Shown one piece after another: positions 10,827 through 35,921 of a stretch of 35,921 bases of DNA. Positions within the stretch are counted from its first letter, which is position 1, and each line of letters opens with the position of its first letter. The notes under the pieces were generated by a model that saw nothing but the letters and a program-made list of their open reading frames with translations, did not search any database and had not been told where the DNA came from. Both the position numbers and the translations under genes were made by a program. The stretch lies in assembly GCF_000787835.1 (NCBI RefSeq), contig NZ_BBPP01000025.1:88455-124375 (forward strand), read 5' to 3'. The stretch is from Streptacidiphilus melanogenes. GTDB taxonomy: Bacteria > Actinomycetota > Actinomycetes > Streptomycetales > Streptomycetaceae.

Positions 10827-10849
10827 GGATGCGCCACGAGCGCCCCCGG

Positions 10850-10972
10850 GACGGCCACCACGAGGCGCACCACGACGGACACCACGAGAGGCACCACGAG
10901 ACACACCACGACTGGCACCACACGGGGGACCACGGGACACCCCACGGACGGCACCACGACATCGACGACGGC
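10850..10972 (+). repeat. Degenerate CACCACGA-type short repeat (His-His codons if translated)
   Basis: About 120 bases hold ten or so copies of a CACCACGA-like core spaced 9 to 15 bases apart (GGCCACCACGAGG, CGCACCACGACGG, GACACCACGAGAG and so on). The frame is open and continuous with the LAL gene, so from an ATG at 10829 it would encode a His-His-Asp/Glu repeat of about 35 residues. From the better start at 10997 it is a 5' leader. The copies vary, and no CRISPR-like spacers are present. Confidence 0.7.
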
Positions 10973-10996
10973 TTCGCGGCCCTCCGGGAGGATCCG

Positions 10997-22451: not shown

Positions 22452-23681
22452 TTACGGGGCGGGCTGGGGCTGGGTGACGCAGTGGATGCCGCCGCCCTGG
22501 TTGCCGAGGTTGTCGATGTTGAGCTGGACCACGGCGCGGCCGGGGAAGAGGCGCTGCAGGACGGCCTTGGCGTTGGCGTCGGCGGTGGAGTCGCCGAACT
22601 GCGCGGAGATCACGGCCCCGTTGCAGACGTAGTAGTTGGCGTAGGCGTCGACGAAGTCCACGCTGGTCTGACGGATCTTGTTGTAGTCCGGGGACTGGAG
22701 CTTGGTGACGGCGATCGCCGCGCCCTGCGCGTCGGTCGAGGTCGACAGGGTGTTGTACTGCTGCTGCTCGTCGTTGGACCAGATGTCCGACGGGTCGGCC
22801 GGGTTGGGGGTCTGCACGAGGCCCGCGCCCGCCGCGAGGAAGCGCGAGGTCGCGTCCACGTGGTCGTCGGTGATGTCCTGGCCGCTGATCCCGGTGAACC
22901 AGATGACCTTGGATGCGCCGTAGGCGGCGCACATGGCCGCCTCGATCTGGGCCTGGGTCCTGCCCGGGTTGCGGTTGCTGTTGATGATGCTGCTCCTGGT
23001 CGCCATGAGCGTGCCGGCGCCGTCCGCCTCGATGGCGCCGCCCTCGCTGACCAGGCCTGCGGCTGTGAAGTTGACGCCGAGGTAGGCGGCCACGCGCTGG
23101 GCTACGAGGGCGTCCTTGGCGTGGGTCTGCTTGTTGCCCCAGCCGTTGAAGTTCAGGCCGACCGCGTCCAGGCCGCCGGCGCCGTCGGTGCGGAAGACCG
23201 GGCCGGAGTCGCGCATCCAGCAGTCGTCGACCGGGATGGAGCCGATGACGGTGACGTTCGGGTTGGTGCACGCCTTCTGCGCCGCGGCCACGCTCGCGGA
23301 GTTGGCGAGCAGGTAGACCGGCTCGTACTTGGCGATGGTGTTGGCGATGAGCGCGATGTTGGCCTGCATGCCGGAGAGCTTGCGGCCGTAGATGGCGGTG
23401 CTGTCGGGCCAGGCCATCCAGGTGCGGGTGTGCGGGGCGCTGTCGAGCGGGACGGCGTAGCCGCCGGCCGTCGCCGCCGCGGCGGCGAGACCGCGGGCGG
23501 AGGCGCTGCGCGAGGCGCTGCGCGAGACGGTGGCCGCACCGGCGACTCCCGCGCCCAGACCGCTGACGGCCCAGGCCGCGCCGGCGGCGGTCAGGCCCGC
23601 GGCCGCCAGGAACCGGCGTCGGGCGAGGGGCTGGGGTGTGGGCGTGCCGTCGGGCTGTTCAGCTCTGGCGTGCTGGTCCAT
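22452..23681 (-). CDS. Tat-secreted agmatine/peptidylarginine deiminase family protein (deiminase 1)
   Basis: A 409-residue protein, ATG at 23681 with GGGAGG upstream. The N-terminus has a twin-arginine signal (LARRRFLAAAGLTAAGAAWA) and a likely cleavage site after AGA near residue 50, so the mature enzyme should be outside the cell. Catalytic elements of the family are present: CWMRDSGPVF, EGGAIEADG, SNRNPG, DITDDHVDATSRFL and, close to the C-terminus, GGGIHCVTQPQP with nucleophile Cys401. Family members convert a guanidino group to a ureido group and release ammonia; known members include agmatine deiminase and the exported peptidylarginine deiminase of Porphyromonas gingivalis. Substrate here is unknown; export favours arginine residues or free guanidino compounds. 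It is divergent from a TetR gene whose probable operator overlies its promoter. Confidence 0.9.
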   Translation of the reverse strand: MDQHARAEQPDGTPTPQPLARRRFLAAAGLTAAGAAWAVSGLGAGVAGAATVSRSASRSASARGLAAAAATAGGYAVPLDSAPHTRTWMAWPDSTAIYGRKLSGMQANIALIANTIAKYEPVYLLANSASVAAAQKACTNPNVTVIGSIPVDDCWMRDSGPVFRTDGAGGLDAVGLNFNGWGNKQTHAKDALVAQRVAAYLGVNFTAAGLVSEGGAIEADGAGTLMATRSSIINSNRNPGRTQAQIEAAMCAAYGASKVIWFTGISGQDITDDHVDATSRFLAAGAGLVQTPNPADPSDIWSNDEQQQYNTLSTSTDAQGAAIAVTKLQSPDYNKIRQTSVDFVDAYANYYVCNGAVISAQFGDSTADANAKAVLQRLFPGRAVVQLNIDNLGNQGGGIHCVTQPQPAP

Positions 23682-23726
23682 GGGTGACCTCCCTGCCGGG
23701 TGCGCGGGCGTTCCGCGTTGGCCGAG

Positions 23727-23755
23727 AAGCTATAACTGACCATGCGCTCGGTCAA
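23727..23755 (-). promoter_or_regulatory. Promoter of deiminase 1
   Basis: On the minus strand, TTGACC (23755-23750), a 17-base spacer and TAGCTT (23732-23727) form a good vegetative-type promoter. A TetR-like palindrome covers its -35 box and spacer. Confidence 0.6.
23737..23754. promoter_or_regulatory. Palindromic operator candidate between deiminase 1 and its TetR
   Basis: TGACCATGCGCTCGGTCA is an 18-base palindrome of form TGACCnnGCGCnnGGTCA, overlying the deiminase 1 promoter. A related, weaker site, TGACCGGTTGGTTA, lies at 23797-23810 just before the TetR start. Together they suggest repression of both divergent genes by the TetR protein. Confidence 0.6.
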
Positions 23756-23821
23756 TACTTCGCGCAACTGATCGTCCTGGATCGACACCGCGGAACTGAC
23801 CGGTTGGTTAAGGTGGGCGTC

Positions 23822-24490
23822 GTGTCTACGCGTTCGAAGGATCTCGGAACAGCTCCCGCCTCGTCGGGCTCGGCGACGGACGGCGGCACGGCGCGGGCCG
23901 CACGGCAGCCGCGCGTGTCGGCGAAGGGCGAGGAGACGAGGGCGCGGCTGCTGGCCGCGGCCAGGAACCTGCTGGCCGGGCAGGGCGACGCGCCGTTCAC
24001 CACGCGGAACGTCGCGGCCCTCAGCGGCGTGACGCACGGGATGTGCCACTACCACTTCAAGGACCGCACCGATCTGATCGTCGCGGTCATCGAGGACATC
24101 CGCCCCGAGTGGATCACGCCCATGGAGGAGGCGGCCGGAGCGCCCGGCAGCTTCGCCGAACGCGCGGAGCGGGTCATCGCACTGCTGGGCCAACCCGAGG
24201 CGGCCGACCAGGCGCGCCTGCACTCCTCGCTGCACTGGTTCGCGGTGAACGACGAGCGGGTGCGCGAGGCGCTGGAGGCCGAGTACGCGCGCTGGCGTGA
24301 GTGCTTCGTCGAGCTCTACCGGGCGTTCGACGCCGAGCGTGGCGGCACGGTGGACGCCCGCACGCTCGGCGAGGCGCTGGCGGCCGCCGCGGACGGCCTG
24401 GCCGCGATCCAGTCGCTGGGCTCGGAGGTGGACGCGGCCGCGGTGGTGCGTGCGCTGGTGTTCGGGCTCGCATCGGGCACCGCCGCCTGA
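23822..24490 (+). CDS. TetR-family regulator divergent from deiminase 1
   Basis: A 222-residue protein read from GTG at 23822, preceded by AAGGTGG as ribosome site. After a 35-residue Ser/Ala-rich tail the helix-turn-helix reads GEETRARLLAAARNLLAGQG, then FTTRNVAALSGVTHGMCHYHF and KDRTDLIVAVIED, the standard TetR pattern with HYHFKDR in the recognition helix region. The C-terminal ligand domain is helical and Ala-rich. It is divergent from the Tat-secreted deiminase and the intergenic region holds palindromic sites, so it most likely represses that gene and itself. The ligand might be a guanidino compound or product, which is inference. Confidence 0.9.
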   Translation: MSTRSKDLGTAPASSGSATDGGTARAARQPRVSAKGEETRARLLAAARNLLAGQGDAPFTTRNVAALSGVTHGMCHYHFKDRTDLIVAVIEDIRPEWITPMEEAAGAPGSFAERAERVIALLGQPEAADQARLHSSLHWFAVNDERVREALEAEYARWRECFVELYRAFDAERGGTVDARTLGEALAAAADGLAAIQSLGSEVDAAAVVRALVFGLASGTAA

Positions 24491-24520
24491 CGCGCCGTCG
24501 GCAGGAACCTCAGAATCGGC

Positions 24521-24729
24521 CTACGGTCCCGCTCCCTCGGACGACCGGGGTGGCGGGGACGACGCCTTCATGTCGTGCCGCTCCCTGCGGACGGCGAGCG
24601 CGACCGTCACGGTGAGACTCGCGGCGATGATGCCCTCGGCCCAGAAGAACGCGACGTGCCGCAGAGCACCGCGACCAGGACCGTGACGAGGACGTGCCGA
24701 GGGATCCTGCGGCGGCGCGGAAGCCTCAC
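24521..24729 (-). pseudogene. Small two-helix membrane protein gene with a one-base frameshift
   Basis: GTG at 24729 overlaps the stop of deiminase 2 as GTGA, a normal coupling signal. The frame encodes VRLPRRRRIPRHVLVTVLVA followed by VLCGT and then runs out of hydrophobic sequence, stopping at 24607. Adding one base near 24665 joins it to an open frame that reads AFFWAEGIIAASLTVTVALA followed by VRRERHDMK and ends at a TAG at 24521. The joined product is a plausible protein of about 69 residues with two membrane helices and a positively charged N-terminus. So either the gene is newly broken or the sequence has a one-base error. Nothing is known of its function. Confidence 0.55.
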
Positions 24730-25922
24730 GAGGCCGTCGCCGAGGGTGCCTGCGCCGGGGGCGAGGTCGCGCCGAGCTTGGGCTGCTGCTGGGTGGAGCA
24801 GTGGATGCCGCCGCCACCGGAGGCGATGGCGTTGATGGAGACCTGTACGACGTCGCGGTCCGGGTGGAGGTCACGCAGGACGGCGGCGGCCTTGTCGTCG
24901 GCCTGCCGGTCGCCGAATCGGGGCATGACGACGGCTCCGTTGCAGACGTAGAAGTTGAGGTAGGTGGCGAGGAAGTCCTTGCCGGCGCCCTCGATCAGGT
25001 CGAGGTCGGGGTCGGTGATCTCGACGACGCGCAGGGAGCGCCCCCGTGCGTCGGTGGCCTGCCGGAGCACGGTGAGAGCCTGGTCGGACGCGGCGGACCA
25101 GATGTCGGGCGGGGTGTTCGGGCCGGGCCGCTGCAGGGCCACCACGCCGGGGCCGACGAAGCGGGCGAGAGCGTCGACATGGCAGTCGGTGATGTCCTGG
25201 CCGGCGACGCCCTTGAACCAGATGACCTTGCGGACCCCGAGCACGGCCTTCAGGTCGGCCTCGATCTCGTCGCGGGTGAGTCCGGGGTTGCGGTTGTCGT
25301 TGACCAGCGAGCTCTCGGTGGCCATGAGGGTGCCGTCGCCGTCGGTCTCGATGGCGCCGCCCTCTCCGGTGATCGGCGCCCGGATGCGACGGACCTGGTA
25401 CTTCGCCAGCAGGTTCGCGGCCACGTGGGCGTCGTCGGCGTGGGTCTGCTTGCCGCCCCAGCCGTTGAAGTTGAGGTCGACTCCGGCGAGACCCGCGGGG
25501 CCCGTGACGAAGGTGGGGCCGGTGTCGCGGGCCCACAGGTCGTCGACCTCGATCGCGACGACCTCGACGCTGTCGCCGACCTGCTGCTGGGCCTGGTCCG
25601 CCTGGTCGGCGCGGGCCATCAGGACGACGGGCTCGTACTGGGCGACGGCTCGCGCGAGGCCGGCGATGTCGTTGCGGACGGCGGGGAGTTGGTCGCCCCA
25701 GACCTCGGTGAGCGCGGGCCAGGCCATGAAGGTGCGCTCGTGCTCCAGCCACTCGGCCGGCATCGCATAACCGGTCGGGGCGTTGTCCGGCGCTTGCGTG
25801 CTCGGGGCGGGCGAGCCCGTCTTCTCAGGGCCGGGCGAGCCGCAGGCGGCGAGGACCGTGGCGGCGGCCAGCCCCGTCCCGGCACGCAGGACCGTGCGGC
25901 GGGTCGGGCTCTGGTCGTGCAT
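24726..25922 (-). CDS. Tat lipoprotein agmatine/peptidylarginine deiminase family (deiminase 2)
   Basis: A 398-residue protein, ATG at 25922. The N-terminus has RRTVLRAGTGLAAATVLAAC: a twin-arginine signal ending in a lipobox (LAAC), so it should be a lipid-anchored protein on the outer face of the membrane. The catalytic parts are complete: MPAEWLEHERTFMAWPA, DDLWARDTGPTF, GEGGAIETDGDGTL, NDNRNPGLT, DITDCHVDALARFV and GGGGIHCSTQQQP with Cys375. A 23-residue Pro/Ala/Ser tail follows the active site. It stands alone between the importer operon (145 bases upstream) and the small broken membrane gene that is coupled to it. It is closest in motif wording to deiminase 5. Confidence 0.92.
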   Translation of the reverse strand: MHDQSPTRRTVLRAGTGLAAATVLAACGSPGPEKTGSPAPSTQAPDNAPTGYAMPAEWLEHERTFMAWPALTEVWGDQLPAVRNDIAGLARAVAQYEPVVLMARADQADQAQQQVGDSVEVVAIEVDDLWARDTGPTFVTGPAGLAGVDLNFNGWGGKQTHADDAHVAANLLAKYQVRRIRAPITGEGGAIETDGDGTLMATESSLVNDNRNPGLTRDEIEADLKAVLGVRKVIWFKGVAGQDITDCHVDALARFVGPGVVALQRPGPNTPPDIWSAASDQALTVLRQATDARGRSLRVVEITDPDLDLIEGAGKDFLATYLNFYVCNGAVVMPRFGDRQADDKAAAVLRDLHPDRDVVQVSINAIASGGGGIHCSTQQQPKLGATSPPAQAPSATAS

Positions 25923-25939
25923 GGCTGCCCCGTTTCGAC

Positions 25940-25975
25940 GCCTTGCAAGGCATTGGCACTGTTTTGATCATTATG
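25940..25975 (-). promoter_or_regulatory. Promoter and palindrome upstream of deiminase 2
   Basis: CATAAT on the minus strand (25975-25970) is a good -10 candidate; its -35 is unclear. About 19 bases downstream lies a perfect 12-base palindrome, GCCTTGCAAGGC (25940-25951), just where a repressor site would sit near the transcription start. It differs from the operators of both TetR genes in the window. Confidence 0.4.
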
Positions 25976-26067
25976 TCCGAGTGACGCAGGGACCTCAGCG
26001 GCAGTCGGCCGACCGGGCGAGGGCGGCGGCCGCCCGGCTCCCCACGAACCGGGTGGCCACCGCCGTT

Positions 26068-26922
26068 TCACAACGCCCGGCGGGCCGCGGCGATGTGCTT
26101 GGGGTCCCAGCCGGGGCGGGGCACGGAGTCGAGCAGCAGCCGGGTGTAGGGGTGCCGCGGGTCGGCGAGCACACCGGCGGTCGAGCCGGCTTCGACGACG
26201 CGGCCGTGGCGCATCACGATCACGTCGTCGGTGACGCAGCGCACGACGCCGAGGTCGTGGGTGATGAACAGGTAGGCGATGCCGGTCTGCTTGCGGATGT
26301 CGGCGAGCAGGTTGAGGATCTGGGCCTGGACGGAGACGTCGAGCGCGGCGACGGCCTCGTCCAGCACCAGGATCCGGGGTTCCACGGCCAGGGCACGGGC
26401 GATGGCGACGCGCTGGCGCTGGCCCCCGGACAGCTGCCGGGGCAGCGCCGAGGCCTCGCGGGCCCCGAGGCCGACCTGGTCCAGGAGTTCGGCGATCCGC
26501 GCTGGGTGGTCGCGACCGGGGAAGTGGAGCCGCAGGGTCTCGCGCAGCACGGCCTCGACGGTGGTGCGCGGGTCGAGGGAGAGGAAGGGGTCCTGAAAGA
26601 CCATCTGGACCTCGCGGGCCCGGGCCAGTCGCGCGGCACGCCCGCGTTGCGGACCACCGGACCCGCCGCCGACGCGGACACGGCCGGCATCGGCCCGCTC
26701 CAGGCCGACGACGATGCGGGCGGTGGTGGTCTTGCCGGAGCCGGACTCCCCCACGATGCCGAGGGATCCGCCGCGGGCCAGGGTGAAGGAGACGTCGTCG
26801 ACGGCCTTCACCTCGCCGAAGGCGCGGCAAAGGCCGTCGACCTCCAGCACGGCCGCGCTGTCGCGGCCGCCCGGGGTGTCGGGCCGGGGGGCGTCGCCGG
26901 CCTCTCGCAGGGTGTCAGGCAT
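26068..26922 (-). CDS. Peptide/nickel-type ABC importer, ATP-binding subunit (DppF/OppF type)
   Basis: A 284-residue ATPase, ATG at 26922, overlapping the end of the DppD-type gene by eight bases, with GAGGTGACC upstream. Walker A is GESGSGKTT, the signature is LSGGQRQRVAIARALAVEP, Walker B is ILVLDEAVAALDVSVQA and the switch is ITHDLG. In Walker B the usual P-T after E is replaced by A-V (DEAVAALD instead of DEPTSALD), a mild variation seen in OppF relatives. The C-terminus is VPRPGWDPKHIAAARRAL. It is the last gene of the leftward unit and works with the DppD-type ATPase on two membrane subunits. Confidence 0.93.
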   Translation of the reverse strand: MPDTLREAGDAPRPDTPGGRDSAAVLEVDGLCRAFGEVKAVDDVSFTLARGGSLGIVGESGSGKTTTARIVVGLERADAGRVRVGGGSGGPQRGRAARLARAREVQMVFQDPFLSLDPRTTVEAVLRETLRLHFPGRDHPARIAELLDQVGLGAREASALPRQLSGGQRQRVAIARALAVEPRILVLDEAVAALDVSVQAQILNLLADIRKQTGIAYLFITHDLGVVRCVTDDVIVMRHGRVVEAGSTAGVLADPRHPYTRLLLDSVPRPGWDPKHIAAARRAL

Positions 26923-27937
26923 CGGCGGTCACCTCGGTGAGCTGGTCGCTGTGGTGGCAGGCGGCCAGGTGGGGCTGCGGGTTCCCGTCCGCGACGGGGA
27001 TCAGTGCGGGGGCGCGCTCGGTGCAGACGTCGGTGGCGAGACGGCATCTGGGCGCGAACGGGCATCCCGTCAGTTCCTGGCGCAGGCTCGGCGGCTGACC
27101 GCCGATGGCGGCGAGCCTGCCGCGCGGGGCCGTGAGCCGCGGGGTGGAGTCGAGCAGCGCGCGGGTGTAGGGGTGGCGGGGGCGCTGGAAGAGTTCCTCG
27201 GCCGGGCCGGTCTCGGCGATCCGCCCCGCGTACATCACGTAGACGCGGTCGCTGATGGCGGCGGCGAGGCCCAGGTCGTGGGTGACGAACAGCAGGCCGG
27301 TGCCGAACTGCCCGCGCAGGTCGTCGAGGAGGCCGACGACCTCGGCCTGGGTGGTGACGTCGAGCGCGGTGGTTGGCTCGTCGGCAAGGATCAGGGTCGG
27401 ATCGCCCATCAGCGCCGCCGCGATCATGACGCGTTGCAGCATGCCGCCGGAGAGCTGGCCGGGGTACCTGCGCAGCACGTGGTCCCCGAGCCCGACGGCG
27501 TCGAGCATCCGCACCGCCCGCTCCGTGGCCTCCTCGGCCGGGACCTGGGCGTTCAGGCGCAGGCTCTCGGTGAGGAAGTCGCCGATGCGGCGCAGCGGGT
27601 TGGTGGCGGCCCGCGGATCCTGGAAGATCATCGCTGCCGTGTGGGTGCGCAGCCGCCGCAACTCTCCCGGGTTCATGGCCAGCACGTCCCGGCCTTCGAC
27701 CAGCACCCTGCCCTCGGCGACGGCGCCCGGCGGGAGCAGGCGCAGCACGCTGCGGGAGGTGAGGCTCTTGCCGGAGCCGGACTCGCCGACCAGCGCGACG
27801 GTCTCGCGCGGGGCGACGGTGAGGTCGACTCCGTCCAGCACCGGACGGGCGGTGCCGGGCAGGTTCAGCCGCAGGCCGCGGATGTCGAGCGCCGCGTCGG
27901 GGCCGGTGGAGGCGTGGGGCTCGGTGGTGGTGCTCAT
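26915..27937 (-). CDS. Peptide/nickel-type ABC importer, ATP-binding subunit (DppD/OppD type)
   Basis: A 340-residue ATPase; ATG at 27937 overlaps the stop of the DppC-type gene as ATGA. Walker A is GESGSGKSLTS, the signature is LSGGMLQRVMIAAALMGDP, Walker B is LILADEPTTALDVTTQA and the switch histidine is in VTHDLG. The C-terminal extension has CPFAPRCRLATDVC, the Cys-rich oligopeptide-transporter motif that in OppD/DppD proteins can hold an iron-sulfur cluster. This marks the transporter as the peptide/nickel/opine class. The frame is open for 27 more residues upstream, but the overlap start is the clear choice. Confidence 0.94.
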   Translation of the reverse strand: MSTTTEPHASTGPDAALDIRGLRLNLPGTARPVLDGVDLTVAPRETVALVGESGSGKSLTSRSVLRLLPPGAVAEGRVLVEGRDVLAMNPGELRRLRTHTAAMIFQDPRAATNPLRRIGDFLTESLRLNAQVPAEEATERAVRMLDAVGLGDHVLRRYPGQLSGGMLQRVMIAAALMGDPTLILADEPTTALDVTTQAEVVGLLDDLRGQFGTGLLFVTHDLGLAAAISDRVYVMYAGRIAETGPAEELFQRPRHPYTRALLDSTPRLTAPRGRLAAIGGQPPSLRQELTGCPFAPRCRLATDVCTERAPALIPVADGNPQPHLAACHHSDQLTEVTADA

Positions 27938-28794
27938 CGGTCCCTCCTGGCGACCTGGTCGGCCCAGCGTTCGCCGACGACGTTGAAGGCGACGACGGTC
28001 ATGACGATCGCGAGGCACGGCAGGATCGCGGAGAGCGGGTAGCCGGACTGGATGGCGCTCTCGCCGTCGAAGACCATGCGTCCCCAGTCGGGCGTCAGCG
28101 GCGGGACGCCGAGGCCGAGGAAGGACAGGCCCGCGAGGTCGATCAGGGCGTAGCCGAAGTTGATGGTTGACTGGGCCAGCACCACCGGCGCGATGTTGGG
28201 GAGCACATGGCGCAGGCTGATCTGCAGGCCCGAGTGACCCTGCACCCGGTAGGCCTCCACGTACGGGCGTTCGCGCTCGGCCAGCACCAGGGAGCGGGTG
28301 AGCCGGCTGACGTAGGGCAGGTAGGCGACGCCGAGCGCGAGCACGGGCGCCGTCAGCCCGGGGCCGTAGACGGAGACGATGAGGATCGCCAGCAGCATTC
28401 CGGGGAAGGCGAAGACGAGCTCGGTACCGCGCGAGAGCAGGGAGTCGAGCCAGCCGCCGCGCCAGCCGGCCGCGAGGCCGACGGCGACGCCGGCGACGGT
28501 CGAGAAGACGACGACGCCGAGCGGCCCGAGCAGAGAGGTGCGGGCGCCGACGAGCAACCGGGAGAGGGTGTCGCGGCCGGAGGCGTCCACTCCCGCGGGG
28601 TGGGCGCCGGACGGTCCGGCGAGGGCGCTGCCGAGGTCGACGGCGTTGGGGTCGTGCGGCGCGATCCAGGGCGCGACGATCGCCAGCAGCACGAGCAGGG
28701 CGACGAAGCCGAGGCAGATCCGGAACAGCCAGGAGCGGTCGGTGCGGATCCCGGCGAGGCCCGGTCGGCGGCGGATCAGGGTGGCGGTGGTCAT
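27934..28794 (-). CDS. Peptide/nickel-type ABC importer permease (DppC type)
   Basis: A 286-residue membrane protein, ATG at 28794 (ATGA overlap with DppB-type gene). Membrane segments include LFRICLGFVALLVLLAIVAP near the N-terminus, GVVVFSTVAGVAVGLAAGW, ELVFAFPGMLLAILIVSVYG and, near the C-terminus, ILPCLAIVMTVVAFNVVGE. The periplasm-facing part has the DppC hallmark HPAGVDASGRDTLSRLLVGA. The cytoplasmic EAA-type loop, EAYRVQGHSGLQISLRHVLP, contacts the ATPases. It lies between permease B and ATPase D, the standard order. Confidence 0.94.
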   Translation of the reverse strand: MTTATLIRRRPGLAGIRTDRSWLFRICLGFVALLVLLAIVAPWIAPHDPNAVDLGSALAGPSGAHPAGVDASGRDTLSRLLVGARTSLLGPLGVVVFSTVAGVAVGLAAGWRGGWLDSLLSRGTELVFAFPGMLLAILIVSVYGPGLTAPVLALGVAYLPYVSRLTRSLVLAERERPYVEAYRVQGHSGLQISLRHVLPNIAPVVLAQSTINFGYALIDLAGLSFLGLGVPPLTPDWGRMVFDGESAIQSGYPLSAILPCLAIVMTVVAFNVVGERWADQVARRDR

Positions 28795-29750
28795 GCGGCC
28801 GACCTCCGCTCGCCCAGGGTGACCCGCGGGTCGACCAGCGGGTGGAGCAGGTCGACGGCGAGGTTCACGGTCATGAAGAGTCCGACGATGATCAGGGAGA
28901 CCGCCTGGACCACGGGGAAGTCCTTGGTGGTCGTGGACAGGTCGAGGAGCTGGCCGATGCCGTCGACGCTGAAGGCGGACTCGACCAGGACGGTGCAGAT
29001 CAGCAGCGTGGAGACGATCAGGCCGCCCATGGTGAGCACGGTGCCCAGCGAGTTGCGGAAGACGTGACGCAGGATCACCGACCGTTCCGGCACACCGCGG
29101 CTGCGGGCGACCGTGACGTGCTCATGGCCGAGCGCCTCCAGCATGGCGCTGCGGGTGACCCTGGCCAGCATGCCGATCAGGTAGAGCGCGAGGGCGACGG
29201 CGGGCAGGGTCAGATGCCACAGCGTGTCGAGGAGGCCGGTGCCGGTGCCGCCGCTGGGGAACCAGTGCAGCTTGACCGCGAACAGGCCCTGCAGCAGGAC
29301 GGCGGCGACGAAGGACGGGGTGCCGACGGCCACGGTGGTGGTGACCAGGATCGTCGAGTCCGTCGCGCCGCCGCGGACGGCGCCGATCCACCCGAGCGCC
29401 AGCCCGGCCGCCATCACCAGGACCAGCGCCATCGCGACGAGCAGCAGCGTGGTGGGCAGGCGCGCGGCGAGCAGGTTCGAGACGCTGGTGCGGTACTCGA
29501 TGGACCGGCCGAAGTCGCCCTGGAGCACCTGGCCGAGCCAGCGCAGGTACTGGACCGCGAAGGGGTCGTTCAGGTGGTACTGCTCGTTGATGGCCTTGAT
29601 TGCATCGGGCGTCGCCGAGCGGCCGGAGAGCAGGAAACTGGCCGGGTCGCCCGGCGCCAGGTACATCGCCCCGAAGATCACGAACGAGGCGGCGAGAAGG
29701 GTGGCGGCCATCTCGGCCAGCCGCCGGGCGGCGAAGCGCGCGAACCTCAT
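28791..29750 (-). CDS. Peptide/nickel-type ABC importer permease (DppB type)
   Basis: A 319-residue membrane protein, ATG at 29750 (ATGA overlap with the substrate-binding gene). It opens MRFARFAARRLAEMAATLLA with the usual first helix, then FVIFGAMYLAPGDPASFLLS and DPFAVQYLRWLGQVLQGDFG, the DppB fingerprint. Other helices include LLLVAMALVLVMAAGLALGW and VQAVSLIIVGLFMTVNLAVD. The EAA-type loop is VARSRGVPERSVILRHVFRN, ending near NSLGTVLT. It pairs with the DppC-type permease. Confidence 0.94.
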   Translation of the reverse strand: MRFARFAARRLAEMAATLLAASFVIFGAMYLAPGDPASFLLSGRSATPDAIKAINEQYHLNDPFAVQYLRWLGQVLQGDFGRSIEYRTSVSNLLAARLPTTLLLVAMALVLVMAAGLALGWIGAVRGGATDSTILVTTTVAVGTPSFVAAVLLQGLFAVKLHWFPSGGTGTGLLDTLWHLTLPAVALALYLIGMLARVTRSAMLEALGHEHVTVARSRGVPERSVILRHVFRNSLGTVLTMGGLIVSTLLICTVLVESAFSVDGIGQLLDLSTTTKDFPVVQAVSLIIVGLFMTVNLAVDLLHPLVDPRVTLGERRSAA

Positions 29751-31447
29751 CCCGCGGCCCCCACGTCGGCGGCCCACGGGTAGTACAGGTAGGAGATGGT
29801 GGTCGGGGCGCCGGTGATCCGCTTGTTGAGGAACAGTCCGGTGGGCCACTCGGCGGCCGGGATCCAGGTGACCTGGTCGGCGACGATCTTCTGCAGCCTG
29901 GCCTCGACCGCGAGGCGGCCCGCCGGGTCGTAGGTGCTCAGGGCCTGCTGGACGAGCTTGTCGTACGCCGGGTCGCTGAAACCGGCGTAGTTCTGGAAGC
30001 CGCCGGTCTCGAAGTTGGACAGCACGTCCATCGGGTCGGTGACGGACAGGTAGTAGGTCTCCGGGAACATGTCCAGGCCGGCGCGGGCCTTGGGATCGGA
30101 GAACAGCGCGGTGTAGGCGTTCGGGGCGATCGTCTTCAGCTGGACGTTCAGGCCGATCTGCGTGCCCGCCGACTGGACGGCGGTGGCCAGCAGGGAGACG
30201 TCCTGGCCGATGGGGCTGGTGGCGATGGTGACGGTCTTTCCGGTCGCCCCGGCCGCCTTGATCAGGGCCCTGGCCTGGTCGAGGTTCTGCGCGGCGGAGG
30301 GCAGGTCGTCGAGGGCGGCCTTGCGGGTCTCCGGATTGGCCAGGTTCCAGGCCGCGCGCGGCGAGACCGAGTTCGATACCGTGCCGACGCCGGCCAGACC
30401 CGTCCTGACGAAACCGGTGCGGTCCAGCGCCATCGACAGCGCCCGGCGGACCCGGACGTCGCCGAGCGGCCCCTTGAGGTTGGTGACGTTCACGTTGACC
30501 GTGGTCAGGCCCTCGCCGAAGTACAGGGTGCCCACGCCGCTGGACTTGAGGCGGGAGTAGCTCTCGGTGGGGATCAGGTAGCTGCCGTCGACCTCGCCGC
30601 TGAGCAGGGCGTTGGTGAGCGCGGAGGGGTCGGTGAGGAAGTCGAAGGTGACCTTGCCGGACTTGGCCCGGGTGCCCCAGTATCCGTCGAAACGGTCCAG
30701 CTCGACGGACTGGCCCTTCGTCCAGGTGCCCAGCTTGTAGGGGCCGGTGCAGTCCAGCGAGCCGGAGGTGCCGTAGTTCTTTCCCGCGGCCCTGATGCCC
30801 TTCTCGCCGGCGATCACTCCGGCGGCGGTGGCCATGTACTGCGGGAACAGCGCGTCCGGCCGCTTGAGCTTGACGGTGACCTGGAGCGGGCCGGTCTTGG
30901 TGATCGAGGCGACGTTCTGGAACGACTGGATCCAGTAGGACCCGAGCGACGGGTCGAGCTGGCGGTTCAGGCTGTAGACGGCGTCGTCCGCGGTCATCAC
31001 CGAGCCGTCGTGGAAGTGCACGCCGGGGCGCAGGTCGTAGACGAAGGTGGTCGGGTTCGGCGTCTGCACGTCCTGGGCCAGGCCCGGCTCCTCCTTCAGC
31101 TGCGGGGTCCAGCGCATGAGGCTCTCGCAGACATTCGAGAGAATCATGTTCTGCTCGTAGTCGAAGGCGTAGATGTAGTCGAGGGTGGGCGGCTCCGCGT
31201 AGAGGCCCCAACTGAAGGAGGCCAGGTCGCCCTTGGCGGCCGGAGTGCCCGCGGAGAGCTGGAGGGCGGCGGCGCCGGACGGGCCGGTGGCGGGCGGGCC
31301 CGAGCAGGCCGCCACGAGGGCCAGCGCGACGGCGCCCGACAGCGCGACGGCGGTGCGGCGCCGGGATCTGCGCCGGCCTCTGCGCTGGACTCCGGGGCCG
31401 GCCGGTCCGCCGGACCTGGCCCCGGACGAGGGGAGTGGGTGGGGCAT
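29747..31447 (-). CDS. Substrate-binding lipoprotein of the peptide/nickel-type importer
   Basis: A 566-residue protein, ATG at 31447 with GGAAGAG upstream. A basic N-terminus (RRGRRRSRRRTAVALSGAVA) leads to the lipobox VAAC; the multiple arginines could also be read as a Tat signal. The body is a family-5 solute-binding protein: LDYIYAFDYEQNMILSNVCE, FVYDLRPGVHFHDGSVMTAD and DVRVRRALSMALDRTGFVRT are its standard segments. Ligands of this family include peptides, nickel complexes, opines and other small nitrogen compounds; the sequence does not show which. It lies 33 bases after deiminase 3 and is co-transcribed with it, so a guanidino compound, a peptide or nickel for urease are the leading ideas. 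Confidence 0.92.
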   Translation of the reverse strand: MPHPLPSSGARSGGPAGPGVQRRGRRRSRRRTAVALSGAVALALVAACSGPPATGPSGAAALQLSAGTPAAKGDLASFSWGLYAEPPTLDYIYAFDYEQNMILSNVCESLMRWTPQLKEEPGLAQDVQTPNPTTFVYDLRPGVHFHDGSVMTADDAVYSLNRQLDPSLGSYWIQSFQNVASITKTGPLQVTVKLKRPDALFPQYMATAAGVIAGEKGIRAAGKNYGTSGSLDCTGPYKLGTWTKGQSVELDRFDGYWGTRAKSGKVTFDFLTDPSALTNALLSGEVDGSYLIPTESYSRLKSSGVGTLYFGEGLTTVNVNVTNLKGPLGDVRVRRALSMALDRTGFVRTGLAGVGTVSNSVSPRAAWNLANPETRKAALDDLPSAAQNLDQARALIKAAGATGKTVTIATSPIGQDVSLLATAVQSAGTQIGLNVQLKTIAPNAYTALFSDPKARAGLDMFPETYYLSVTDPMDVLSNFETGGFQNYAGFSDPAYDKLVQQALSTYDPAGRLAVEARLQKIVADQVTWIPAAEWPTGLFLNKRITGAPTTISYLYYPWAADVGAAG

Positions 31448-31480
31448 CGTGCTCTCTCTTCCGTGCGGACGGCCGGATGG

Positions 31481-32482
31481 TCAGGCGCGGGGAACCTGCT
31501 GGGTGATGCAGTGGATGCCGCCGCCGCCCCACGCGACGGTGCGGGTCGGCACGCCGACGACCTTGCGGTCGGGGAACGCGGAGGCGAGGACGGCCAGGGC
31601 GCCCTCGTCCTGCTCCGGCACGCCGCCGACGGGCACGACGACACCGCCGTTGGCGATGTAGAAGTTGAGGTAGCCCACCTCGGTGGTGCGACCGTCGACC
31701 TCGACGAACACGCTCTGCGGGATGTCGACGATCTCCAGTCGGCGGCCCTTGGCGTCGACGACGTTCTCCAGCACCGCGCGGTTGGCGCGCATCCGCACGT
31801 AGTCCGGGTGCTCGGGGTCCTCGGGGAGCTGGACGACGACCTTGCCCGGAGCGACGAAGGCGCAGACGCCGTCGACGTGGCCGTCCGTCTCGGTGTCCTC
31901 CAGGCCGCCGTAGGGCAGCCAGATGACGGTGGTGACGCCGAGTCGGGCCTTGAGCTCGTCCTCGATCTGCTCGCGGGTCAGGTCCGGGTTGCGGTTGGGG
32001 TGGAGCAGGCACTGCTCGGTGGTGATCAGCGTGCCCTCGCCGTCGACGGTGACCGAACCGCCCTCGAGGATCATCGACGACGCGATGCGCGCGACGTCGA
32101 GGTGCTCCAGGAGCAGGCCCGAGATCCGGTCGTCCGCGTCCCACGGGTGGTGCTTGCCGCCCCAGGCGTTGAAGCGGAAGTCGACGCCGGCGCGCTCGCC
32201 GTCCTCGCCGAGGACGAAGATCGGACCGGAGTCACGGAACCAGGAGTCGTCGATCGGCATCTCGACGACCTCGACGCCGTCCCCGCACAGCTCGCGGGCC
32301 TGCTCGCCCTGGCCGGGCAGCGCCACCACGGTCACCGGCTCGAACTCGGCGATCGCCCGGGCCACCGCGGCGTGCTCGGCCCGGACGTCGTCCAGCACCC
32401 GCCCCCACAGGTCCGGTCGGGTCGGCCAGGCCATCAGACAGCGCTCGTGCTCGGCCCACTCGGCCGGCATACGGAAGGACAC
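31481..32482 (-). CDS. aguA: Agmatine deiminase, canonical cytosolic type (deiminase 3)
   Basis: A 333-residue protein, GTG at 32482 with AGAGGAG upstream. It has no signal sequence, starting MSFRMPAEWAEHERCLMAWP as cytosolic agmatine deiminases do. Active-site parts: DDSWFRDSGPIFV (D84), LEGGSVTVDGEG, HPNRNP, TETDGHVDGVCAFV (H202, D204) and GGGGIHCITQQVP (Cys325). TETDGHVD and IHCITQQ are closest to true AguA of all five members here. AguA turns agmatine into N-carbamoylputrescine and ammonia. No AguB (N-carbamoylputrescine amidase) is in the window, so agmatine use is likely but not certain. It is the first gene of a six-gene unit with the importer. Confidence 0.92.
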   Translation of the reverse strand: MSFRMPAEWAEHERCLMAWPTRPDLWGRVLDDVRAEHAAVARAIAEFEPVTVVALPGQGEQARELCGDGVEVVEMPIDDSWFRDSGPIFVLGEDGERAGVDFRFNAWGGKHHPWDADDRISGLLLEHLDVARIASSMILEGGSVTVDGEGTLITTEQCLLHPNRNPDLTREQIEDELKARLGVTTVIWLPYGGLEDTETDGHVDGVCAFVAPGKVVVQLPEDPEHPDYVRMRANRAVLENVVDAKGRRLEIVDIPQSVFVEVDGRTTEVGYLNFYIANGGVVVPVGGVPEQDEGALAVLASAFPDRKVVGVPTRTVAWGGGGIHCITQQVPRA

Positions 32483-32544
32483 AACGATCTCCTCTGACGG
32501 GCTTGGTGCTCTCGGCCGCGCGGAGCGTCGGCGAGGTGCCCCGA

Positions 32545-32573
32545 ATCCTCCACCGAACTGAAACTTCAGTCAA
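32545..32573 (-). promoter_or_regulatory. Promoter-operator of deiminase 3 and the importer operon
   Basis: Minus strand: TTGACT (32573-32568), a 17-base spacer and GAGGAT (32550-32545). The -35 box and spacer contain the palindrome ACTGAA-n2-TTCAGT (32557-32570). The same TTGACTGAAnTTTCAGT sequence recurs at 33275-33291 facing the other way, which marks it as the operator of the TetR gene between them. Confidence 0.75.
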
Positions 32574-32706
32574 TATGGTTGCGCCGAAGATTTCCCGCCA
32601 GAAAATGCCGACAGAGGCGGACATACGGACCGCCTCCGTACGCCTCTCCCCCGGCATACTGAAGAATGCATCAGGATCAGAGCGTGATGCCGTAGCCTCT
32701 GCGTCT

Positions 32707-33282
32707 GTGTCTGACCGACGAACCGAGATTCTTGAGGCCGCGACCCGCGTGATCGCCCGCCGCGGGGTGCGCGGACTGCGGGTGGCCGAGCTCGCGGCCG
32801 AGGCCGGCGTCTCGACAGCCTTGATCTACTACCACTTCACCGACCGGGCCGGGATCCTGCGCCGCACCCTCGCGTACATCAGCGACCGCGCCGACCGCTA
32901 CACCGCCGAGCGTGACGTCGCGGACGACCTCGACCCGCGCACCGACCTGGAGCAGACGCTGCTGCTCGAACTCCAGGACATCCCCGAGGTGCGCGAGAAC
33001 AGCACCGCCTGGGGCGAGCTGCGGGCCACCGCCATCTTCGACCCCGACCTGCGGGAGGAACTGGCCAAGGCCACGCTGACCTGGATCCACGGGACCGCCG
33101 AGCTGATCAGCCGCGCCTGCCCCCAGGGCACCGCCCCGGCCCACGCGGCCGCCGCCGAACGCCTCACCTCGCTGCTGGAGGGCCTGAGCGTGCGCTGGCT
33201 CAGCGGCTCCCTCCCGCTCGACCACGCCCGCCGGCTGCTGAAGGAGGCGATAGCCGTCGAACTCGCCGCCATGCTTGACTGA
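32707..33282 (+). CDS. TetR-family regulator between the two deiminase operons
   Basis: A 191-residue protein from GTG at 32707; TAGCCT at 32693-32698 lies eight bases upstream and no ribosome site is seen, so the transcript may be leaderless. An upstream ATG at 32604 in frame would add about 34 residues and cannot be excluded. The helix-turn-helix is complete: RRTEILEAATRVIARRGVRG, then VAELAAEAGVSTALIYYHFT and DRAGILRRTLAYI. The C-terminal domain is helical with WGELRATAIFDPDLREEL, typical of TetR_C proteins. The stop codon lies inside the right-hand operator copy. The gene is flanked by two copies of one palindrome, so it is very probably the repressor of both neighbouring operons. Confidence 0.9.
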   Translation: MSDRRTEILEAATRVIARRGVRGLRVAELAAEAGVSTALIYYHFTDRAGILRRTLAYISDRADRYTAERDVADDLDPRTDLEQTLLLELQDIPEVRENSTAWGELRATAIFDPDLREELAKATLTWIHGTAELISRACPQGTAPAHAAAAERLTSLLEGLSVRWLSGSLPLDHARRLLKEAIAVELAAMLD

Positions 33283-33303
33283 ATTTTCAGTCGGTGTCAC
33301 TGT
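33275..33303 (+). promoter_or_regulatory. Promoter-operator of deiminase 4-deiminase 5-urease operon
   Basis: TTGACT (33275-33280), a 17-base spacer and CACTGT (33298-33303). The perfect palindrome GACTGAA-TT-TTCAGTC (33277-33292) covers the -35 box and spacer, as in the left copy. The site overlaps the stop codon of the TetR gene. The leader to the ATG at 33443 is about 130 bases and shows no other clear structure. Confidence 0.75.
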
Positions 33304-33442
33304 TGGGGTGCCGACGCCGGATGAACCACGACCCGCGACCTGCGCCCGCGACCCGCCCGCGCACGCCGGAGGCCCGCTCGACAGCCCGGCCGTCGGGCTC
33401 GCCACGGCTCGGCGAGGCACCATCGATCTGGAGGCTCCCCCG

Positions 33443-34537
33443 ATGAACGAACCCCGGCAGGCTCGGCGCTCACTGTTCGACCGCCTCTTCGGCGCGCCGG
33501 ACCCGCAGCCCGACGCGCCGCTCCCGGGCGGGCCGGTGGGGCGGGTCGAGGCGGACGACGTCCCCCATGCCCGCACGTGGATGTCCTGGCCGGCCTCCCG
33601 CTCCATCTGGGGACGGCAGCTGGACGGCGTCCAACAGGACATCGCCCTGGTCGCCAGGACCGTGGCTCGCTTCGAGCCGGTGACCGTGTGCGCGCCGGAC
33701 GAGTCGGCCGCGGCGGCCGCCCGCGCCCTGTGCGGAAGCCACGTGGAGGTGATCGGTTCCATCGCCACGGACGACCTGTGGATGCGCGACACCTGCGCCG
33801 TCTTCCGCCGCACGCCCAGCGGCTCGCTCGACGCCGTCGGACTGAACTTCAACGGCTGGGGCCGCAAGCAGGCCCACGCCCGCGACGCCGCCGTGGCACG
33901 CGCCGTCGCGTCCCGCGAAGGCCTGCCGTTCCAGGCGGCCGCGTTCGTCGGCGAGGCCGGGGCGATCGAGACCGACGGCGACGGCACCGTGATGGCGACC
34001 GAGAGCAGCCTGGTCAACACCAACCGCAACCGCGGCATGAGCCGCGACGGGGTCGAGCGCGCGGTGCTGGACGCCTACGGCGCCGAGCGCATGATCTGGG
34101 TCCGCGGGCTCAAGGGGCGGGACATCACCGACGACCACATCGACGTCACCTCCCGCTTCGTCCGGCCCGGTGTCGTGCTCGTCCAGGTGCCGCCGGCGGA
34201 CCGGAACGACGTGTGGGCGCGCGACGCCCGCGAGCAGTTCGCCGCCCTCGAGGGCGCGGTCGACGCCAGGGGACGCCGCCTGCAGGTGATCAGGGTCGAC
34301 GGCCCCGGTCAGGTGCGTTCCCGCAAGTCGACCTTCGTCGACTCCTATCTCAACTTCCACCTCGTCAACGGCGCCGTCATCACCGCCCAGTTCGGCGACG
34401 TCGTCAAGGACGAGGAGGCCCGGCAGACCCTCGCCGCGGCCTTCCCCGGCCGGGAGGTCGTCCAACTCGACGTCGACCGGCTGATGGCGGGCGGGGGCGG
34501 CATCCACTGCTCGACCATGCAGCAGCCCCTCGCCTGA
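33443..34537 (+). CDS. Agmatine/peptidylarginine deiminase family protein, cytosolic, altered motifs (deiminase 4)
   Basis: A 364-residue protein; ATG at 33443 is chosen for GGAGG eight bases upstream. No signal peptide: the start MNEPRQARRSLFDRLFG lacks a hydrophobic run. Family motifs are present but changed at places strict in the others: DDLWMRDTCAVF (usual RDTGP or RDSGP), GEAGAIETDG (usual GEGGAIE) and NRNRGMS (usual NRNPG). DITDDHIDVTSRFV and GGGGIHCSTMQQP with Cys356 are intact, so the nucleophile, histidine and acidic residues remain. In overall wording (LDAVGLNFNGWGRKQ) it is closest to deiminase 1. It may have a different substrate. It is the first gene of the rightward operon. Confidence 0.9.
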   Translation: MNEPRQARRSLFDRLFGAPDPQPDAPLPGGPVGRVEADDVPHARTWMSWPASRSIWGRQLDGVQQDIALVARTVARFEPVTVCAPDESAAAAARALCGSHVEVIGSIATDDLWMRDTCAVFRRTPSGSLDAVGLNFNGWGRKQAHARDAAVARAVASREGLPFQAAAFVGEAGAIETDGDGTVMATESSLVNTNRNRGMSRDGVERAVLDAYGAERMIWVRGLKGRDITDDHIDVTSRFVRPGVVLVQVPPADRNDVWARDAREQFAALEGAVDARGRRLQVIRVDGPGQVRSRKSTFVDSYLNFHLVNGAVITAQFGDVVKDEEARQTLAAAFPGREVVQLDVDRLMAGGGGIHCSTMQQPLA

Positions 34538-34647
34538 CCGCCCCGACTGCCGACGCCGCCCGCGCTCCACGCGCCCGCTCCCGGCGCACCCGCCACCCCC
34601 GGGCGCGAAACGAACCACCGCTCGACCATCCTGCTCAGGAGTGACCC

Positions 34648-35820
34648 ATGTCTTCTGCTCTGTCCCGCCGCGTGGTGCTCCAGTCCCTCGCAGGCCTCGG
34701 CCTCCTCGCCTTCGGCACCGCCGCCTGCTCCTCCTCCGCCTCCCGTGGCAGCGGCCCCGCCGACGGGATCAGTTCGGCGACCGCCGTGGCGGACTCCGCC
34801 GGCGGCCGGGTCTTCGGGGCCGAGTGGGAATCCCACGCCCGCGCCTTCATGAGTTGGCCCGCGTCAGTGAACATCTGGGGCGACCAACTCGGCGGTGTCC
34901 GCGCGGACATCGCCCGCCTCGCCAAGGCCGTGGCGGGCTACGAACCGGTCGTCATGTTCGCCCGCCCCGAGCAGGCCGACGACGCCCAGGCCGCGGTCGG
35001 CGACGGCGTCGAGGTCGTCCCGCTCGCCGTCGACGACCTCTGGGCCCGCGACACCGTCCCGGTCTTCGTCCACGACGACGGCACGCTCAAGGGTGTCGAC
35101 TTCAACTTCAACGGCTGGGGCGAGAAGCAGAAGGAGCACGGCAACGACTCCGCGCTCGCCGCCGCCCTGCTGTCCAGGTACCGGATCCCGCGCATCGAGA
35201 CCCCGGTCGTCGCGGAGGGCGGCGCCTTCGAGACCGACGGCCGGGGCACGCTCCTGGTCACCGAGAGCTCGGTCGTCAACGACAACCGCAACCCCGGCAT
35301 GAGCCGCGACGACATCGAGGCCGAGCTGATGAAGGCCCTCGGCGTCACCAAGATCATCTGGCTCGCCGGGGTGAAGGGCAAGGACATCACCGACGCCCAC
35401 GTCGACTGCCTGGCCCGCTTCGTCGCCCCCGGCGTCGTCGTGCTGGACAAGCCCTTCCCCGGGGCCCCGGCCGACGTGTGGTCCGAGGCCGCGGCCCAGG
35501 CCAAGGAGGTCCTGAGCAAGGCCACCGACGCCGACGGCAACCCGCTGAAGATCGTCGAGATCCAGGAGCCCGACCCCGACAGGATCACCGGGCGCGGCGA
35601 CGCCTTCGTCTCCTCCTACATCAACTTCTTCGTCGCCAACGGCGCGGTGTTCATGCCCAGGTTCGGCGACGCGGACGCCGACGCGAACGCGCAGCGGATC
35701 ATGCGCGACCACTTCCCCGGCCGCGACATCGTCGCGCTGCAGATCGACAACATCGCCGCCGGTGGCGGCGGCATCCACTGCTCCACGCACGACCAGCCCG
35801 GCACTCCCGCCCAGTCCTGA
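34648..35820 (+). CDS. Tat lipoprotein agmatine/peptidylarginine deiminase family (deiminase 5)
   Basis: A 390-residue protein, ATG at 34648 with AGGAG upstream. The N-terminus SRRVVLQSLAGLGLLAFGTA then AC is a twin-arginine signal with lipobox (TAAC), predicting an enzyme anchored outside the membrane. Motifs: DDLWARDTVPVF (the G of RDTGP is V), AEGGAFETDGRGTL, NDNRNPGMS, DITDAHVDCLARFV and GGGGIHCSTHDQP with Cys378. The gene follows deiminase 4 after 110 bases and precedes the urease start by 29 bases, so it is probably in one operon with both. It is close to deiminase 2 in sequence, suggesting a duplication. Confidence 0.92.
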   Translation: MSSALSRRVVLQSLAGLGLLAFGTAACSSSASRGSGPADGISSATAVADSAGGRVFGAEWESHARAFMSWPASVNIWGDQLGGVRADIARLAKAVAGYEPVVMFARPEQADDAQAAVGDGVEVVPLAVDDLWARDTVPVFVHDDGTLKGVDFNFNGWGEKQKEHGNDSALAAALLSRYRIPRIETPVVAEGGAFETDGRGTLLVTESSVVNDNRNPGMSRDDIEAELMKALGVTKIIWLAGVKGKDITDAHVDCLARFVAPGVVVLDKPFPGAPADVWSEAAAQAKEVLSKATDADGNPLKIVEIQEPDPDRITGRGDAFVSSYINFFVANGAVFMPRFGDADADANAQRIMRDHFPGRDIVALQIDNIAAGGGGIHCSTHDQPGTPAQS

Positions 35821-35849
35821 CCCCTCTCCCACCCAGCGAAGGTCCGCCC

Positions 35850-35921
35850 ATGCGCTTGACCCCGACCGAGAAGGACCGGCTGCTGCTCCACACCGCAGCC
35901 CATCTCGCCCGCGCCCGCCTC
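35850..35921 (+). CDS. ureA: Urease subunit gamma (partial, N-terminus only)
   Basis: The last 72 bases read from ATG at 35850 as MRLTPTEKDRLLLHTAAHLA and RARL, the conserved opening of urease gamma (usual form MRLTPTERDRLLLF followed by AAELARAR). GAAGG lies upstream. Only 24 residues are visible; it may be a separate gamma subunit or a gamma-beta fusion, and the rest of the urease genes should follow to the right. Urease splits urea to ammonia and carbon dioxide and needs nickel. It follows deiminase 5 by 29 bases, which ties it to the deiminase operon. Confidence 0.85.
   Translation, partial: MRLTPTEKDRLLLHTAAHLARARL

Follow-up and report, generated by a model that had tools for sequence, protein, structure and literature searches.

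An expanded deiminase cluster with a urease-like partner in Streptacidiphilus melanogenes: a candidate route for guanidino compound utilisation

Why should an actinomycete keep five deiminases of one family beside an importer, two TetR regulators and the first codons of a urease-type gene? The question is raised by the window studied here, a stretch of 35,921 nucleotides from Streptacidiphilus melanogenes (contig NZ_BBPP01000025.1, positions 88,455 to 124,375) that forms the end of its contig (C83) in an 8.77 Mb genome and stops inside a gene that we call ureAB'. Five of the genome's six PF04371 deiminase genes (PAD1 to PAD5) lie in it. We propose, with a probability of roughly 0.57, that the cluster serves the inducible utilisation of agmatine-type guanidino compounds and that UreAB'C', an enzyme of the urease fold, stands in for AguB in hydrolysing the ureido intermediate. 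On this view the cluster varies a known theme, the deiminase-amidohydrolase pathways, and may contain a new enzyme class.

All five deiminase frames recovered by the profile search are intact and carry the GGGIHC loop near the C-terminal end. The alignment retains the catalytic Asp, Trp, His, Asp and Cys in each of them, a feature of AguA membership (the PAD3 loop is off by one residue in the MAFFT table, and the motif was used to read the residue before the catalytic His). A preliminary description of this DNA had reported five deiminases with a full catalytic loop, an importer and two TetR genes. These readings are borne out by the profile search and by Pfam matches of the SBP_bac_5, OppB, OppC, OppD and OppF types. 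Its remark that one or two such deiminases are usual also holds: among 297 same-family genomes, 66 have no PF04371 match, 174 have one or two, 11 have three or four and 46 have at least five. This distribution is two-peaked, at most seven candidates being scored per genome; fragments of one broken gene may be counted separately, and of the 231 genomes with a match, 2 fell below the family cut-off.

The cluster recurs with its order preserved. PAD3 and the five importer genes follow one another identically in all 17 further cluster genomes (the ATPF gene is cut by the end of the stretch in one), which were chosen among high-scoring matches rather than at random, and such conservation is more than chance. 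Cluster proteins of these genomes are mostly 60-88% identical to those of the window, and a second PAD2-like type is 54-58% identical; genes in relatives were called with a simple codon-position G+C rule made for this analysis. Six other genomes of the genus (G001, G002, G004, G006, G009 and G013) have the cluster and seven lack it. It is split over contigs in G002 and reduced to three of the five deiminases in G001. The G013 copy (contig C4, 7927852-7942212) has many broken frames, as from sequencing errors or decay, in a genome that is 76% complete.

What follows the deiminases is visible only in relatives. The last 72 bases of the window translate to MRLTPTEKDRLLLHTAAHLARARL, the N-terminal residues of a fused urease gamma/beta protein. 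The preliminary description placed a urease within 13.4 kb; it rightly read these 24 codons as a urease-type gene, but the window holds no urease gene set. A genome search and Pfam on the window genes found no canonical urease alpha in the window; the genome's own lies on contig C97, and a second match, on C78, scores 22.6 bits. In relatives the gene continues as UreAB' (urease gamma and beta by Pfam) and is followed by a urease-like alpha, UreC', for which Pfam gives urease alpha. Both genes are present in 14 of the 17 cluster genomes (three cut by contig ends), often directly after PAD4 or PAD5.

The same pair also stands beside a lone chromosomal deiminase, PAD0, in genomes without the cluster. 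All 80 UreC' loci of named genomes have a deiminase gene close by, 78 arranged as UreAB'-UreC'-PAD0 and two in the large cluster. These are the best 80 of 583 UreC' relatives and so are biased to close ones, and a class-wide search extended the range. Far beyond the family, the two are still linked, in another gene order, at locus L194 (UreC' 52% identical), where deiminase, UreAB' and UreC' share one strand, and a deiminase lies close to UreC' in the distant loci L191 (61%) and L190 (66%). Furthermore, a set of 28 same-family genomes shows co-occurrence: UreC' is in 19 of the 21 with PF04371 and in none of the 7 without (Fisher p 3e-5, indicative only, the genomes being related); the two exceptions are the genome of the window, which has an assembly gap, and G035. 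The preliminary description had argued for a dedicated system and named scattered paralogues without a urease link as the observation that would speak against it; the deiminases were instead found linked to a urease-like pair.

UreC' combines an intact urease metal site with a remodelled pocket. In an alignment of 110 sequences (80 from named genomes and 30 from the class search), the equivalents of the metal ligands His134, His136, Lys217, His246, His272 and Asp360 are invariant, as are those of His219, Asp221, His320 and Arg336. The loop with Ala167 is four residues shorter in every sequence, and the flap Cys319 is replaced throughout by Ala, Val or Ser. Trp222 has become Met, Leu or Thr, and Ala363 has become Gly; the roles and numbering of these ligand, loop and flap positions are those we take to hold for urease. 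The best matches in the PDB are ureases, and the UreC' of locus L046 passes a broad urease-alpha subfamily model. It falls below the cut-off of the TIGR01792 urease_alph model, however, with 626.3 bits against 680, whereas the canonical urease of the S. melanogenes genome scores 875.

The genes of the nickel-insertion machinery are likewise not detected at cut-off strength. Neither ureG nor ureD exceeded its cut-off in any of 16 genomes with UreC' only (defined by a single alpha match at E<=1e-100 among the four candidates that were scored in each genome), compared with 6 of 6 genomes with a canonical urease; ureE and ureF were not searched. Weak ureG-like matches reached 46 bits in G323 and 24 bits in G052. 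The latter, a same-family genome of five contigs, has UreAB'-UreC'-PAD0 with ureG and ureD not over the cut-off. The UreC' centre therefore seems to be assembled without the nickel machinery. Judged from its sequence, the partner of the deiminases is probably not a standard urease.

These features bear on a second reading, in which one paralogue deiminates free guanidine to urea and UreAB'C' acts as a second urease, perhaps with another metal, for nitrogen or alkalinisation. The iron-cofactored urease UreA2B2 of Helicobacter (PMC11541087) shows that a urease need not depend on nickel, and the urease fold, the invariant ligands and catalytic residues, the PDB matches and the broad subfamily model all fit a urease here. 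The shortened loop, the changes at the flap Cys and its neighbours and the failed urease_alph cut-off do not, nor do the ureG and ureD results, tempered by a ureG piece in G559. Moreover, no guanidine riboswitch reached the gathering threshold in the window or in six loci (L046, L050, L055, L073, L081 and L110). We regard this reading as improbable, and the ordinary urease fed by free guanidine that the preliminary description had considered finds no support in the remodelled pocket, the urease_alph score or the riboswitch search. A 5_ureB_sRNA match was seen in L081, on the minus strand inside ureC'.

The usual second enzyme of agmatine catabolism could not be found in its customary form. AguB exceeded its cut-off in none of the 25 genomes searched (21 same-family and 4 others), and no CN_hydrolase occurs among the window cluster genes scanned. 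Against the AguB cut-off of 410, nitrilases scored about 255-265 bits in 20 of the 25 genomes and 246 in one; G009, G438, G476 and G559 had no nitrilase match above 108 bits. In both genomes looked at (L197 and L198), a class III aminotransferase is the neighbour of the nearest nitrilase; in L198 the nitrilase also has pyrimidine-type genes around it, with PucR, a hydantoinase-type amidohydrolase and a cytosine/purine permease. Because of these neighbours, a beta-ureidopropionase role appears likelier for the nitrilase than service as a back-up AguB. With AguB below the cut-off in every genome searched and UreAB'C' in its place, we propose UreAB'C' as the enzyme that hydrolyses what the deiminases produce, a ureido compound. 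Such a step, acting on an N-substituted urea from a deiminase, fits these observations better than the route through guanidine and urea.

In the proposed pathway, exported PAD1, PAD2 and PAD5 (joined by PAD4 in some relatives) would convert external guanidino compounds to ureido compounds and ammonia. The Opp-type importer would bring substrate or product into the cell, where cytosolic PAD3 would deiminate guanidino compounds that arrive intact. UreAB'-UreC', as a metallo-hydrolase, would then remove the carbamoyl group of the ureido product to yield an amine, CO2 and NH3, doing the job of AguB in Pseudomonas. TetR_B would repress both operons from a shared palindrome until a guanidino-class ligand binds. 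UreAB'C' with PAD0 is a common module of the family, and the window cluster would be its expanded, exported version. Observed directly are the genes present, how they are conserved, where the palindrome lies, the altered urease site and the lack of ureG and ureD over cut-off beside a lone UreC'; every substrate, activity and direction of transport in this scheme is inferred, as are the metal, the palindrome binder and the TetR ligand. A more specific claim, that UreAB'C' is a new enzyme class, an accessory-independent and probably non-nickel urease-fold hydrolase of N-substituted ureas such as N-carbamoylputrescine, is one to which we give slightly less than even odds. Phenylurea hydrolase B (PDB 4whb), by its name an enzyme acting on substituted ureas, matches UreC' weakly (E 2.3e-5) and over 54 residues only.

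A shared palindrome ties the cluster together. ACTGAANNTTCAGT occurs at two promoter regions of the window and, with at most one mismatch, in all 21 cluster loci (the window, 18 loci from the 17 genomes and two loci of named genomes). The 1.58 Mb of 77 chromosomal UreC'-PAD0 loci hold no site at this threshold and five at two mismatches. No mapped cluster gene contains any of the 58 palindrome sites, and for 55 of them such a gene starts no more than 420 bases away (TetR_B, PAD3, PAD4, PAD5, PAD2-type or ureAB', the other genes being unmapped); in four loci the sites stand upstream of ureAB'. Within the S. melanogenes genome, a longer form, GACTGAANNTTCAGTC, is matched with at most one mismatch twice, each time in the cluster. 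Of its 32 sites in ten cluster genomes, 28 fall within the cluster or at its edge, and one is 1.8 kb away from another deiminase. The total is two sites in six genomes that lack the cluster, and a reversed control pattern has three across all 16 genomes. The palindrome suggests that the cluster is probably regulated as a unit, and the position of TetR_B makes it the candidate binder. Together with the exported and cytosolic deiminases and the conserved order, this supports a co-regulated system with the two compartments that had been suggested from the window. For TetR_A, no palindrome was common to more than two of 16 upstream regions. A TTGACCGA-type repeat near PAD1, considered as an operator, was no more frequent than chance.

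The exported deiminases also form a lineage of their own. In a tree of 100 deiminases and one plant enzyme (one deiminase row of 101 was dropped for length), PAD1, PAD2, PAD4 and PAD5 fall into a single clade (100/100) that excludes PAD0, PAD3 and the plant enzyme, with the program's warning that some long branches may be falsely joined. PAD1, PAD4, PAD5 and PAD0 are each a single clade, as is PAD3 except for the distant L190 row. Since the sequences labelled PAD2 form two clades, some clusters hold a further deiminase type. Twin-arginine translocation (Tat) signals and lipoboxes, called by eye from the N-terminal sequence, agree with the earlier view of PAD1 as secreted, PAD2 and PAD5 as lipoproteins and the other two as cytosolic in the window. 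For PAD4 that view does not extend to relatives, five of which (L053, L059, L065, L074 and L075) have a Tat-like signal that is absent from the window's subclade. The loss of the PAD4 signal therefore looks secondary. Viral contigs searched with PAD1 held no relative. Members of one BLAST gene family are inserted in several of the deiminase clusters (L048 7492-9138, L061 15466-17046, L055 13134-14669 and L060 12051-13814), and the two scanned, in L048 and L061, are serine/threonine protein kinases.

Several observations weigh against the proposed pathway. Three of the 17 clusters lack the urease-like pair or keep a remnant of it: G189 has only a C-terminal piece of UreC', and no UreAB'-UreC' lies in the 20 kb fetched from G173 and from G166. 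Of the 16 UreC'-only genomes, 11 have PF04371, which adjoins UreC' in 6 of them, and 5 lack it. One of the 16, G559, has a ureG piece truncated at a contig end and may therefore hold a fragmentary canonical urease. No deiminase occurs in the fetched stretches of six distant loci (L187, L188, L189, L192, L195 and L196), and none is annotated in a nonribosomal peptide synthetase (NRPS)-type island that holds a 66% relative of UreC'. The importer is of the Opp type, whereas analogous systems use the Pot type. All the deiminases score below the AguA TIGR03380 cut-off of 381.8 (PAD3 359.1, PAD0 314.7, PAD2 282, PAD5 251.7, PAD1 217 and PAD4 215.8), and we saw no report of activity for any member. 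Furthermore, Asp220 of the Medicago enzyme MtAIH, an acid in contact with the amine of agmatine (PMC6447857), corresponds to Glu in PAD3, to Ile in PAD1, PAD2, PAD4 and PAD5 and to Gly in PAD0. Because the acid is kept in PAD3 only, agmatine may not be the true substrate, and related guanidino compounds are as likely for the exported deiminases and PAD0.

Some of these loci have distinctive surroundings. L189 contains UreAB'-UreC', a PotABCD-like importer (potA subfamily cut-off passed) and an Amidohydro_3 protein, and L196 has a similar layout. The NRPS-type island (L183, L184 and L185, about 1-11600) is syntenic on Streptomycetaceae plasmids and has, besides the UreC' relative with its own UreAB, adenylation and condensation proteins, a phosphotransferase and a 528-aa hypothetical protein, with a 2-oxoglutarate-Fe(II) oxygenase gene in L183. 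Such an island is no setting for plain urea breakdown, and the presence of the relative there suggests that the urease-like fold may have several substrates.

The clusters and UreC'-only genomes in which one partner is missing are also what might be seen if UreAB'C' were a passenger, tied to the deiminases by ancestry rather than function. We consider this highly improbable, as the linkage is kept at 52-66% identity with an altered gene order, palindromes stand upstream of ureAB' in cluster loci, and the chromosomal and cluster copies of ureC' are near-identical in G009 and G001. At the DNA level these copies agree at 100% in G009 and 99.9% in G001, two genomes that are themselves about 5% apart, and the two copies in G067 are 92% identical. 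This suggests gene conversion or recent copying of ureC' in the window's genus. Repeats of this kind would also explain why two contigs of the window's genome end at this gene pair, C83 in ureAB' and C89 beside PAD0. In L060 (8567-9550), a frame upstream of PAD3 ends like the C-terminus of UreC' and is likely a remnant of a lost cluster ureC'.

The non-acidic tail pocket of the exported clade and the Opp-type importer with its family-5 binding protein would also suit peptide citrullination and salvage. Exported deiminases would then act on arginine in peptides or proteins, the importer would take up the citrullinated peptides, and UreAB'C' or other enzymes would salvage citrulline. Peptidylarginine deiminases of the Porphyromonas gingivalis type act on peptides, and solved chains of this kind, among them 4yt9 (presumably from P. 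gingivalis), match PAD3 remotely (E 4.5e-11). The same chains are not among the PAD1 matches at E<=0.001, however, and no peptidase occurs among the window genes scanned. The actinobacterial PADI enzymes are described as a separate protein type (PMC8826395). A Streptomyces peptidylarginine deiminase that modifies lasso peptides is also known (PMC12971885, PMC9266682). We hold citrullination to be unlikely. A role in defence, in which exported deiminases inactivate the guanidino antibiotics or signals of competitors under a ligand-sensing TetR, would accommodate the accessory distribution (at least five matches in 46 of 297 genomes), the several exported paralogues with lipoboxes and the TetR regulators. 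No resistance gene was found among the window cluster genes scanned, and because the importer and, in relatives, the urease-like pair are under the same palindrome, we favour catabolism and judge defence very unlikely.

The proposed guanidino utilisation has its closest parallel in the agu2ABCA' operon of Pseudomonas aeruginosa (named in PMC6085387 and PMC4287709), which encodes a deiminase 46% identical to PAD3, AguB, a binding protein and a Tat deiminase with the sequence DITDAHVD. The printed signal peptide of Agu2A', a known Tat substrate (PMC6085387), matches the stretch that we fetched. The window likewise has cytosolic and Tat-exported deiminases (Tat by motif) and a binding protein, of another family, and its exported deiminases share with Agu2A' the Ile of a 'DITD.HVD' motif. 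The Pseudomonas operon differs in having two deiminases rather than five, AguB where the window's relatives have UreAB'C', and no full Opp importer. It also has a LysR gene next to it and a TetR gene two genes downstream. A precedent for an agmatine-responsive TetR is AguR (PMC4287709). In Phyllobacterium, an exported-type deiminase, a four-gene ATP-binding cassette (ABC) importer, an aminotransferase, aguB and a PAD3-type deiminase occur together. Four other deiminase loci that we fetched have no such full set: L213 has a polyamine importer, L212 an ABC importer with a further binding protein, and L214 and L215 no ABC importer.

The same two-step logic, a deiminase gene beside an amidohydrolase gene, underlies the AguA-AguB and AguA-AguY pathways, from which the window system differs in its urease-family second enzyme and in deiminases that fall below the AguA cut-off. 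AguY is a non-homologous second enzyme found beside aguA (PMC12283126), and no amidase match occurs among the window cluster genes scanned. Canonical urease, UreABC(DEFG), shares with UreAB'C' the gamma/beta fusion and alpha subunit, the metal ligands and the catalytic His, but not the remodelled substrate loop and flap or the apparent independence from ureG and ureD. In Streptomyces coelicolor, SCO5525-SCO5526 (annotated ure(AB)C) and SCO5527 have consecutive numbers that fit UreAB'-UreC'-PAD0, a match by gene numbers alone. The first two are called urea-utilising genes in PMC3293853, whose available text does not tie them to a deiminase, and PMC2492869 presents them, in the part available, as a cluster of ure(AB)C only. 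Among the matches listed in a search of titles and abstracts, with subscription journals thinly covered, there was no description of a deiminase coupled to a urease-like enzyme.

The window features are collected in Table 1. Outside the cluster, positions 530-9906 hold genes of an extracellular contractile injection system (eCIS), and positions 20458-22359 a single frame in which MOSC and YiiM_3-alpha domains are fused to FAD/NAD reductase and 2Fe-2S ferredoxin domains.

Table 1. Positions of the cluster genes, operators and other genes in the window (ORF, open reading frame)
Feature	Position	Strand	Evidence
PAD1, exported deiminase, twin-Arg signal (ARRRFLAAAGL) without lipobox, 'DITDDHVD' type	22452-23681	-	PF04371; translation; P1 clade 100/98
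TetR_A regulator, start uncertain, ORF from 23636	23816-24490	+	PF00440; relative in cluster of most relatives
PAD2, deiminase, twin-Arg signal and lipobox LAAC	24726-25922	-	PF04371; alignment; tree
OppF-type ATPase	26068-26922	-	PF00005+PF08352
OppD-type ATPase, ORF from 28018	26915-27937	-	PF00005+PF08352
OppC/DppC/NikC-type permease	27934-28794	-	PF00528+PF12911
OppB-type permease	28791-29750	-	PF00528+PF19300
Family-5 solute-binding protein (SBP_bac_5)	29747-31447	-	PF00496
PAD3, cytosolic deiminase, nearest of the five to AguA, Glu at agmatine-amine position	31481-32482	-	PF04371; AguA score
Candidate operator ACTGAAACTTCAGT between PAD3-importer operon and TetR_B	32557-32570		motif search
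TetR_B, BetI-type C-terminal domain, ORF from 32503, operator immediately before the ATG	32575-33282	+	PF00440+PF13977
Candidate operator ACTGAATTTTCAGT upstream of PAD4-PAD5-ureAB'	33278-33291		motif search
PAD4, exported-clade deiminase, without signal here	33443-34537	+	PF04371; tree
PAD5, deiminase, twin-Arg signal and lipobox TAAC	34648-35820	+	PF04371; tree
ureAB', first 24 codons (fused urease gamma/beta-like), then contig end	35850-35921	+	82.6% identity over 23 aa to L046 UreAB'
gp19-like tail tube	1024-1467		Pfam
Sheath	1536-3263		Pfam
eCIS_core protein	3344-5599		Pfam
Ricin-B lectin-domain protein	5686-7077		Pfam
AAA ATPase	7121-9256		Pfam
Pvc16_N	9253-9906		Pfam

If UreAB'C' is such a new enzyme class, it would be a further non-homologous answer to the second step, besides AguB, AguY and putrescine transcarbamylase. 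The 'second urease' annotations across the Streptomycetaceae would be misnamed, with the window cluster as the expanded extracellular form, and the relatives in the NRPS-type island would put this chemistry to biosynthetic use. Urease is known from textbooks as a nickel enzyme whose maturation machinery is fixed; it would gain a large sister family with another pocket and without that machinery, and this family would offer a clean test of how a metal centre is assembled in the urease fold without helpers. The proposal would also supply, for a major family of antibiotic producers, the second step of agmatine-type catabolism that has been missing there. Finally, the exported deiminases would mean that soil actinomycetes process guanidino compounds extracellularly under a dedicated regulator.

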